From the NCBI GenBank assembly GCA_017403955.1, contig JAFRDH010000015.1:1-62964 (forward strand): DNA of 62,964 bases, given 5' to 3'. Numbering within the stretch: position 1 is the first letter of the stretch; the number at the start of each line of letters is the position of its first letter. Below, in pieces: positions 13,698 through 15,112 of the stretch. The position numbers and the translations under genes are program-made. Under the pieces are notes generated by a model. That model saw nothing but the letters and a program-made list of their open reading frames with translations. It was not told the DNA's origin and ran no database searches. The stretch comes from Mogibacterium sp. (GTDB lineage: Bacteria > Bacillota > Clostridia > Peptostreptococcales > Anaerovoracaceae).

Positions 13698-14342
13698 ATG
13701 CCTGATATCACTATCACCAAACCAAGCTGGACTTCAGAGATCCCTGAAGCTATAGATGCGATCATCAAGATGGATAAGGATGAAGCCGCCAAACATGCTG
13801 AGAAGGTAATTGCGAAGTACGGTGACTGGATCGACACAGTATCTGAAAAATATTCTGTCCCGTCTGCAATTATCAAGTCGATCTTATATATGGAAATCAC
13901 CAGGATCAACATGCTGGATACCGCGGCTGACCTTGCAGTCTGGAGCAATCTTTTTCCTAAGAAGGACAGCTCCACAGGGCCTGCTCAGATTTTCGGAAGG
14001 GTCGGACTTGAAGCGATAAACTTTGCTGTGGAGAAAGGGTATACCGACTATGAGAAACTGGGGATCGTAACGGATCATGTCCTCGACAGCAGCGATCCTG
14101 ACGATGTAAGACTGATCTGGAAAAAGCTTCATAATGATAAGAATGCTAATATCGAGATCGCAACTCTGAACATTCTCTGCGCAGCCGATGAGATGACCGG
14201 ACGCATAGATTTCGGCAATTACAGTGATGAAGAACTCAAACATATCCTGACGAGATATAATGCGGATACACGCAATATAACACCTTACGGGGAAGAAGCT
14301 TTTGAGAATTATATAAGGTACAGCAAGCCTGCGGCCGAATAA
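13698..14342 (+). CDS. Lysozyme-like (transglycosylase-fold) protein, cytoplasmic or exported unknown
   Basis: 214 residues, no signal peptide. A helical region contains AIIKSILYMEITR (Glu66), then SSTGPAQIFG (91-100), which resembles the catalytic Glu followed by the S-x-G-x-x-Q-I motif of lytic transglycosylases. The C-terminal LTRYNADTRN also recalls the ARYN motif of such folds. If so, it would cleave glycan strands, and its link to a racemase gene suggests cell-wall metabolism. Without a secretion signal this is uncertain; it could also be a non-enzymatic member. GGAGG precedes the ATG. Confidence 0.5.
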   Translation: MPDITITKPSWTSEIPEAIDAIIKMDKDEAAKHAEKVIAKYGDWIDTVSEKYSVPSAIIKSILYMEITRINMLDTAADLAVWSNLFPKKDSSTGPAQIFGRVGLEAINFAVEKGYTDYEKLGIVTDHVLDSSDPDDVRLIWKKLHNDKNANIEIATLNILCAADEMTGRIDFGNYSDEELKHILTRYNADTRNITPYGEEAFENYIRYSKPAAE

Positions 14343-14371
14343 GACGGAACGGCAAACTGACAGCAAGAACA

Positions 14372-14948
14372 GAAAAGGACGAGCATTTTGCTCGTCCTTA
14401 GTATTTGTTAACATATTCAGTTGTACTGCTCTGTAATGATATTATACAGTAGCTTCCGTCTGATTATTATTGTTTGCGTTTTCTTTGGTTATCCTGATAA
14501 GCTTTCTGTTTTATTTCTTTTTCTCTTTTCACTTATCTGATACCTGTAAGCAGGTGGGCCTTGCAGAGTTCCTATGACAGGATAACCTCTCTCTCAAATG
14601 TTCCCATCGGTCCGTTCCTCCAGTTCTGCGCTTCCGCTTTGTCTTGTCGCCGATCTCTGATCTTCCGGCACTTTGCAGCTGATCCACTTGCCGCTTTTGT
14701 ACTACATGTCTTGTCTGCCCTGTACTCTTTATCTGTGTACTCTTTCCTCTGATTACTTTTCGGTTATGTACTTTTCGTGCTGGCCTTAGTCCGGTTGGTT
14801 TGCTACCGGCTTTCGTTACCGCCTAATTCTTCCACTGCCTACTTTTTCGTCTGAGTACTTCTTCCACTATCATTCGGTACTGTGGCATTTATTCTTGTAC
14901 TCTGTAGTGCCTTGTTTGTCGGCTTTGCTTTAGCTTTTCCTTTAGCTT
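14372..14948 (-). ncRNA. Candidate large structured non-coding RNA (~570 nt)
   Basis: The 770-bp gap between the lysozyme-like gene and the DUF885 gene holds no plausible ORF. On the minus strand it is framed by a consensus promoter (14955-14984) and a strong terminator hairpin (14374-14400), giving an RNA of about 570 nt. The minus-strand product is strikingly purine-rich with many A-rich loops (AAAAGTA, GAAAGAGTAC, GAACGG). A perfect 10-bp long-range pair joins CAGGATAACC (plus-strand 14578-14587) and GGTTATCCTG (14487-14496), enclosing a tight hairpin ACCTG-TAAG-CAGGT (14542-14555). Further stems include CCGGT/ACCGG near 14790-14810 and GCCG/CGGC near 14650-14670. Size and style recall ornate large RNAs such as OLE, ROOL or GOLLD, but I cannot assign a class. 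Confidence 0.6.
14374..14400 (-). terminator. Terminator hairpin ending the candidate RNA
   Basis: AAGGACGAGCA pairs perfectly with TGCTCGTCCTT around a short AAAA-type loop; on the minus strand it is followed by TTTTCTG. It may also serve the convergent lysozyme-like gene, though the plus side lacks a T-run. Confidence 0.8.
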
Positions 14949-14954
14949 GGTTAG

Positions 14955-14984
14955 ATTGTATTATTTTATGTACAAGATTGTCAA
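14955..14984 (-). promoter_or_regulatory. Consensus promoter for the candidate RNA
   Basis: On the minus strand: TTGACA (14979-14984), 18-bp spacer, TACAAT (14955-14960). It points into the ORF-free region, not towards a protein gene with a usable start. Confidence 0.7.
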
Positions 14985-15112
14985 GAGGGGAATATGTTCT
15001 AAATAAATACAAAAATTCGCGTGCCGGGAGTCTGCATGTTACACAATACTGGAATGTCAGAGCCATTTGGAATAGAATAGAGTGGATATTTTCATAAAGG
15101 AGAATAGATCAG

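Follow-up and report, generated by a model that had tools for sequence, protein, structure and literature searches.

What is transcribed from the seemingly gene-free gap at positions 14,372 to 14,984 of this Mogibacterium sp. contig? We examined the gap within the whole 62,964-nt stretch of DNA (hereafter the window). The initial annotation had proposed a large non-coding structured RNA of about 570 nt that lacks a usable open reading frame (ORF) and belongs to the class of OLE, ROOL, and GOLLD or to a new one. The reading that we favor, with confidence slightly short of even and on the basis of sequence comparison and fold modeling, is a genus-specific, self-contained, translated regulatory RNA whose fold would be remodeled by ribosomes on a mini-ORF.

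A predicted transcription unit and its relatives

The minus-strand unit predicted from the sequence measures about 580 nt in the window. It begins at a TTGACA-18-TACAAT promoter (14955..14984, minus strand; 11 of 12 consensus matches; predicted start about 14948) and ends at an intrinsic terminator with an 11-bp stem and a U-rich tail (14367..14399, minus strand; the hairpin itself 14399-14375). Both signals had been described in the initial annotation and were confirmed here. The promoter ranked first among 9 promoter-like sites between 13500 and 16000, where shuffled sequences gave 4.7 ± 2.6 sites, and a promoter-like box pair was found upstream of 20/20 members in one set and 21/21 in another. 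A dual-function RNA would be expected to carry its own promoter and terminator, and by sequence prediction these were found in 21/21 and 18/21 members, the exceptions to a simple terminator rule being L002, L011, and L030. The RNA is apparently independently transcribed, judging from these signals. The minus strand was predicted to fold at -123.6 kcal/mol compared to -102.8 ± 5.6 kcal/mol for dinucleotide shuffles (z = -3.7), and 0 of 100 shuffles equaled it.

We compared the unit with known RNA families. At gathering thresholds, Rfam 15 recognized only two tRNAs in the whole window. At E <= 10, the best of five matches within 14340-15060 was MicX, which lay on the opposite strand and scored 26.9 bits, the cut-off being 75, and ten homologous loci searched at E <= 1 returned only a tRNA and one sub-threshold hit. 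The ROOL, GOLLD, and OLE covariance models had no match at gathering in the window, at E <= 10 in 14340-15060, or at E <= 1 in the ten loci, and the suggested membership in that class was not borne out; the other option offered, a new class, agrees with a conserved structured RNA that Rfam 15 does not recognize. ROOL, GOLLD, and OLE are described as structured RNAs of hundreds of nucleotides, ROOL and GOLLD being without known function in that account (PMC12286853). The present RNA resembles them in structure and size; unlike them, it has no model match, and its conserved core spans only about 170 nt with an ORF inside. The phage or prophage setting of ROOL and GOLLD, often near tRNA islands, was not seen among the neighbors read (asd, lysC, hom, a larE-like gene, the purine nucleoside phosphorylase gene, and DUF885). 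A single viral-contig pattern hit was unrelated on reading, and one locus (L030) had one tRNA nearby.

Several further candidates were rejected. The raiA motif RNA, or ModT, is like the present RNA a structured RNA of Bacillota as far as its description goes (PMC11706538); its model (RF03072) did not match at the RNA, and its matches sit elsewhere in 43 of the 47 genomes of the window's genus (42 over the cut-off), the window's own genome not being among them. Neither ARAGORN nor Rfam found tmRNA (RF00023) at the RNA, and over-cut-off matches lie elsewhere in 33/47 genomes, including that of the window; a tally of 47/47 at E <= 0.001 includes short partial matches. The 6S RNA model (RF00013) had no match here and matched elsewhere in 9/47 genomes, 8 over the cut-off and none in the window's genome. 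A CsrA sponge, to which GGA-rich repeats had pointed, was dismissed, as PF02599 was detected in 0/47 genus genomes and in 3/14 controls. An EF-Tu mRNA mimic, prompted by two pattern hits at apparent EF-Tu gene starts, was likewise dropped, the shared part being start-site sequence. It was noted separately that the window's genome holds two strong tmRNA matches (G000:C2:9966-10320 and G000:C23:4340-4693; 190 and 173 bits) and lacks a match to raiA, for which a second copy, contamination, or an assembly gap are candidate readings.

The initial annotation had suggested an Rfam scan and a homologue search as checks, and the second of these recovered relatives. A DNA search of 99 relatives found 29 matching genomes at E <= 0.01, the best match being 70% over nearly the full length (G023); the most widely shared stretch was 14543-14631 of the window rather than the 5' part. 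A covariance model of the core (R1), built from 33 sequences and with 82 bits or more counted as strong, gave strong hits in 35/47 genomes of the window's genus (family Anaerovoracaceae), with two strong copies each in G008 and G037; the count of 40 obtained at E <= 0.01 takes in weak hits as well. Among the 12 genomes with no strong hit, four are 90-99% complete, G034 has a rearranged copy, and the others have none or weak hits. There was no strong hit beyond the window's genus in a family sample of 296 genomes from 92 genera, where an 83-genome tally includes many weak hits of 24 bits or less, and in an order sample of 393 genomes from 158 genera the matches at E <= 1e-6 were in the window's genus only. 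Both searches covered samples and used strict filters, under which distant or weak members may go undetected, and by sequence search the family has been found so far in one genus. The weak model hits were rejected as distant homologues, since 9 of 13 fetched lie at gene starts and the five best alignments lack the core fold.

Those records that bear names come from metagenome bins labeled "Mogibacterium sp.", "Clostridiales bacterium", and "uncultured Clostridiales bacterium", several from goat or sheep gut, with the Mogibacterium rows assigned to the family Anaerovoracaceae; the RUG bins are of rumen origin. The genomes are mostly metagenome bins, and the member counts depend on one model made from part of the same set. 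From 41 pattern stretches, reading identified 27 members and 14 unrelated sequences; 13 of the 27 duplicated known loci and 14 were added. L039 and L129 denote one locus, entered as L129 in the ORF and pseudoknot counts and as L039 in the neighbor counts; L131 repeats L066 and was uncounted, and L130, split into repeats on a contig that ends inside the core, was excluded. Many of the loci are close relatives of one another: the resulting 37 core rows comprise 35 different sequences, and 23 remain below 93% identity. The promoter, helix permutation, openness, terminator, and dyad sets draw on 21 members selected from the 37, most of them distinct. Titles and abstract starts yielded no published description of the RNA; subscription papers and bioRxiv lie mostly outside that coverage, and this is not proof of absence.

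The mini-ORF within the conserved core

Where no usable ORF had been seen, we found an 11-codon ORF (14572..14607, minus strand; MGTFEREVILS, stop UAG) whose Shine-Dalgarno sequence GGAGG (14617..14621, minus strand) lies 9 nt ahead of the ATG. A homologous ORF is intact in 37/37 loci. Each has the conserved start, the in-frame stop, and the Shine-Dalgarno sequence (GGAGG or a near variant) by which a leader-peptide uORF is recognized, with 10-11 codons before a UAA or UAG stop. The ORF measures 36 nt in 31 loci and 33 nt in 6, and it stops at TAA in 21, at TAG in 16, and at TGA in none. Judged by sequence, the Shine-Dalgarno, the start codon, and the short ORF form the best conserved part of the RNA. 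The idea of a non-coding structured RNA is thereby half upheld: the RNA is conserved and folded, yet it is not plainly non-coding.

We then considered which features of the ORF are informative. As a control, the first stop in frame +1 fell at twelve offsets, with 20/37 loci sharing one, and in frame +2 it fell at an early shared offset in 28/37 loci. Because other frames also share stop offsets, a shared stop position alone is weak evidence. The telling points in the sequences are the varied codons before the stop, twelve different ones across the 37 loci, and the use of two reading frames: many members retain the RNA letters GGCUGUUCCG, yet the frame in which these are read differs, and a UAR stop follows within a few bases. 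The 33-nt form takes two changes on the core tree, although it may have a single origin.

The variation of the peptide bears on the possibility that the RNA is a micropeptide mRNA, whose product would be the 10-11 residue peptide and whose structure would stabilize or throttle the message. Complete translation signals and an own promoter are in keeping with this. The peptides, however, vary widely (MGTFEREVILS, MGYSNREVDPA, MGAIYMEAVPV, and MGIFKKGLFR), and the end is read in two frames while it is the RNA helices that are conserved. We regard this explanation as improbable.

The fold includes two long-range helices. In helix D, the late ORF codons pair with a segment some 80-100 nt downstream. 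Its 5' arm (GGUUAUCCUG, 14578..14587, minus strand) takes in the third base of codon 7 and all of codons 8-10, and its 3' arm is CAGGAUAACC (14487..14496, minus strand), both arms being supported by the sequence, by alignment A1, and by permutation; this is the perfect 10-bp long-range pair already noticed in the window, and the helix recurs in most of the 21 relatives. Matched arms gave -20.5 kcal/mol compared to -16.5 ± 0.7 for permuted arms (0/5000; 21 members). Foreign arms did as well as the own arm in 19/20 cases for L011, which pairs poorly, in 12 for L132, 11 for L006, and 9 for L014. In A1, 88.7% of helix D cells pair, with both-side changes in 5/10 pairs. Helix A joins a 5' arm (GCCGA, 14919..14923, minus strand) to a 3' arm identified in the permutation test (UCGGC, 14649..14653, minus strand), spanning up to some 400 nt and closing the 5' insert. 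Its arms covary among relatives (GCCGGA/TCCGGC, GCCGAC/GTCGGC, and GCCGAT/ATCGGC), and matched arms gave -18.7 kcal/mol compared to -14.2 ± 0.8 when permuted (0/5000; 15 members).

The smaller elements are arranged around the ORF. Helix B, a small GC hairpin 5' of the Shine-Dalgarno (14628..14637, minus strand), was read from the sequence, with 65.2% of cells paired in A1; it is absent on reading in L008, L010, and L012. The conserved motif CUCUGCAAGGC (14558..14568, minus strand, alignment A1) lies just 3' of the stop codon. Next comes hairpin C (ACCUG-CUUA-CAGGU; 14542..14555, minus strand), the perfect hairpin reported inside the long-range pair, with 96% of cells paired over the three pairs counted in A1. 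A 3' hairpin (14431..14449, minus strand) was read from the sequence, and a similarly placed candidate is readable in many relatives. The conserved box ACAACUGAAUA (14414..14424, minus strand) precedes the terminator; a regex for it matched in 18/21 members and in L022 caught a look-alike ahead of the true box. Antitermination involving the 5' arm of helix D and the terminator was inspected by eye and rejected as inconsistent.

Across the whole structure, A1 contained 52 doubly changed cells compared to 24.4 ± 3.9 when shuffled and 10-31 when slid, and 78.7% of paired cells compared to 74.1% when shuffled and 30-40% when slid. Pairs with double changes numbered 14 compared to 11.1 (31/500 shuffles as high), and further pair types fell below the shuffles in A1, that is, showed no excess; the shuffle and permutation statistics ignore shared ancestry. 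In a ranking of all 12,100 column pairs (23 sequences), few helix pairs were top-ranked (59-186 at rank 2 and 5-12 at rank 3), which we attribute to shared ancestry among the 23 sequences. By sequence comparison, the conservation of the structure and of the ORF is well supported.

The main alternative is that the RNA is an ornate RNA in the style of OLE, ROOL, and GOLLD, in which GGAGGACAGACC would be structural or would bind the 30S subunit with no functional translation. The RNA is structured and bears long inserts, as this account would have it. Alignment-free folding of 21 members gave mean unpaired probabilities of 0.63 for codons 2-6 and 0.19 for codons 7 to the end, and the start was of average predicted openness (Shine-Dalgarno 0.55 and AUG 0.45 compared to 0.48 for the whole RNA), not specially open. 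This average openness and the repetition of GGAGGACAGACC, mostly without ATG, in L130 of G034 are the best evidence for a non-translated RNA. Also counting against the favored reading, the peptide is conserved only in its M and mostly its G, and its letters are in any case constrained as RNA. Against it, an ATG and an in-frame UAR codon occur in 37/37 loci with varying neighbors and with two frames running through the helix, and there is no ornate-RNA model match. Moreover, 9 of the 13 weak hits fetched are the start of ORFs of 73-465 codons (L107, L110, L113, and L116 are not), so the start region resembles a functional translation start as found in this bacterial family. We consider a non-translated RNA unlikely, and a translated regulatory RNA remains our preferred reading.

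Modules, promoter surroundings, and genomic neighborhood

We sought to characterize how members differ outside the core. The 300 nt between the predicted start and the core are 70% purine in the window, in agreement with the purine bias first remarked upon. The variable insert (14654..14918, minus strand) carries AAGUAC repeats, is closed by helix A, and is missing from short relatives; AGTAC occurs 7 times in the window insert compared to 0.9 expected (0/500 simulations). The distance from predicted start to Shine-Dalgarno is 18-19 nt in L008 and L010, 324 nt in the window, and up to 443 nt in others. By sequence comparison, the purine-rich 5' stretch is an optional, lineage-specific insert and the source of the large size. 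Nine long-insert members fall on one branch (support 99/94), together with the short-leader rows L011 and L030.

Other modules are also clade-bound. A pseudoknot 3' of hairpin C scored above shuffles in 22/37 loci and in none on the window's branch; as a family-wide feature it was rejected, a score of at least 20 (with 4/60 shuffles or fewer as high) being reached in those 22 loci only. One clade (L021, L042, L128, and L132) carries additional conserved sequence, rich in hairpins, between helix D and the terminator, about 110-195 nt past the ORF stop, with no Rfam match at E <= 1 when searched in L021. In L130 (G034:C70), positions 851-1217 carry the Shine-Dalgarno-like GGAGGACAGACC six times (3 exact and 3 with two changes or fewer) at a spacing of 67-79 nt; an ATG in its usual context follows the first and last copies only, and the last copy has an 11-codon ORF.

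The promoter surroundings suggest regulation. In the window, an imperfect dyad TGTATTTATTTAGAACA (14995..15011, minus strand) lies 10 nt 5' of the -35 box as a candidate regulator site, and several relatives have a perfect dyad, TGTATT-N5-AATACA, upstream of the promoter. A dyad regex, composed after viewing the members, matched 14/21 of them compared to 0.06 expected from base shuffles, and the dyad sits at two main spacings that differ by about 10 bp, or about one helical turn. Among eight genomes searched, the perfect dyad occurs genome-wide once, at the RNA promoter, in G016, G024, and G044; G000 has one elsewhere, G023 has two on contigs without the RNA, and G009, G022, and G035 have none. 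On this sequence pattern, the promoter is probably regulated, and a dedicated regulator for the dyad is possible. It was also noted that in L009 a GC-rich, repeat-like block, structured to the eye and with no Rfam match at E <= 1, lies upstream of the RNA promoter.

The neighboring genes bear on two cis-acting explanations. With some flanks short, asd or hom was found within the flank in 29/37 loci; the orientation was convergent in 24 of these, and in the other 5 (L004-L007 and L066) the gene lay upstream and co-directional. The frequent convergent placement is what speaks for a regulator of the lysC-asd-hom cluster that would act by convergent transcription or antisense overlap. However, asd, hom, and lysC are absent throughout the window, where the promoter, core, and terminator all persist away from this usual neighborhood, the five same-direction loci do not fit, and the RNA has its own terminator. 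The second explanation, a cis-acting leader-peptide attenuator of a downstream gene, draws on the resemblance of the short ORF, stem, and terminator to attenuators such as those treated in PMC11109978, and on a co-directional purine nucleoside phosphorylase gene that follows the RNA in L005-L007, L016, and L066. Against this, the neighbors in the window are a divergent DUF885 gene and, as the next gene, a convergent 214-aa ORF with no Pfam match; asd or hom is convergent in the 24 loci; no consistent co-directional downstream gene was found across the 37 loci; and no run of one regulatory codon was visible in the peptides compared. The changing neighbors and orientations make both attenuation and a cis role at asd/hom unlikely, and we would give each of them very little credence. 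A self-contained unit is instead suggested by the RNA's own promoter, by the lack of any consistent gene downstream, and by the persistence of the RNA away from asd/hom. As a side observation, the RNA is oriented oppositely relative to asd and the phosphorylase gene in L005-L007 and L066 as compared to L014 and L015, so that an in-place inversion of the RNA seems to have occurred.

A proposed translation-driven switch

The self-contained translated RNA that we favor could work as follows. Transcription would start at the RNA's own promoter, which is probably regulated, and would stop at its own terminator. Ribosomes would load at the Shine-Dalgarno and AUG and translate the 10-11 codons. Several late codons (8-10 in the window) would supply the 5' arm of helix D, by which the structured core is closed. 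Every ribosome translating as far as the stop would therefore melt this helix, which would re-form once the ribosome leaves. The RNA would alternate between two states, one closed and one held open by a ribosome; in the open state, the 3' arm of helix D and the conserved sequence that follows the stop codon would be exposed. Such a molecule may be a translation-gated dual-function RNA that acts in trans, or it may sense ribosome supply. We infer transcription and actual translation, and likewise the switch, the regulatory output, and the targets. A more specific version appears doubtful to us: mini-ORF traffic to the UAR stop would be the folding switch, the RNA would report the supply of ribosomes or release factor 1 in trans, and lineages would add modules such as the AAGUAC repeats, the second 3' module, and the pseudoknot.

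The proposed arrangement shares parts with several known systems. SgrS/SgrT, RNAIII/hld, and SR1/SR1P are dual-function RNAs, each a stand-alone transcript with a short ORF and a functional RNA part. The present RNA would combine the same two parts; unlike in those cases, its ORF codons form an arm of the main conserved helix, and its peptide is shorter and unconserved. In tmRNA, an ORF lies within a structured RNA, the 3' part of the ORF is in a helix, and a hairpin follows. The present ORF likewise has its 3' part in a helix with a hairpin next, and one clade has a pseudoknot; in contrast to tmRNA, there is no tRNA-like part and there is a Shine-Dalgarno.

The ilvB and fthC uORF candidates from bacterial intergenic screens, as presented in PMC11109978, lie upstream of one gene, in a model with a terminator before the gene. 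Like the present RNA, these motifs have a conserved Shine-Dalgarno, start, and in-frame stop and are genus-restricted, and the stop of the fthC uORF can sit in a stem. Unlike the motifs as described there, the present RNA comes with a promoter and a terminator of its own, contains long-range helices, and lacks a consistent gene downstream.

Screens for structured RNAs class motifs as uORF, sORF, or structured RNA, and the present family would be both at once: the same bases serve as codons, in either of two reading frames, and also build one side of a covarying helix. Should the fold be gated by translation, this would be an attenuator-like device that has no gene of its own and acts as a free-standing regulator. 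A small natural version of the RNA measures about 325 nt, and roughly 20 distinct variants occur naturally, which makes the idea directly testable.
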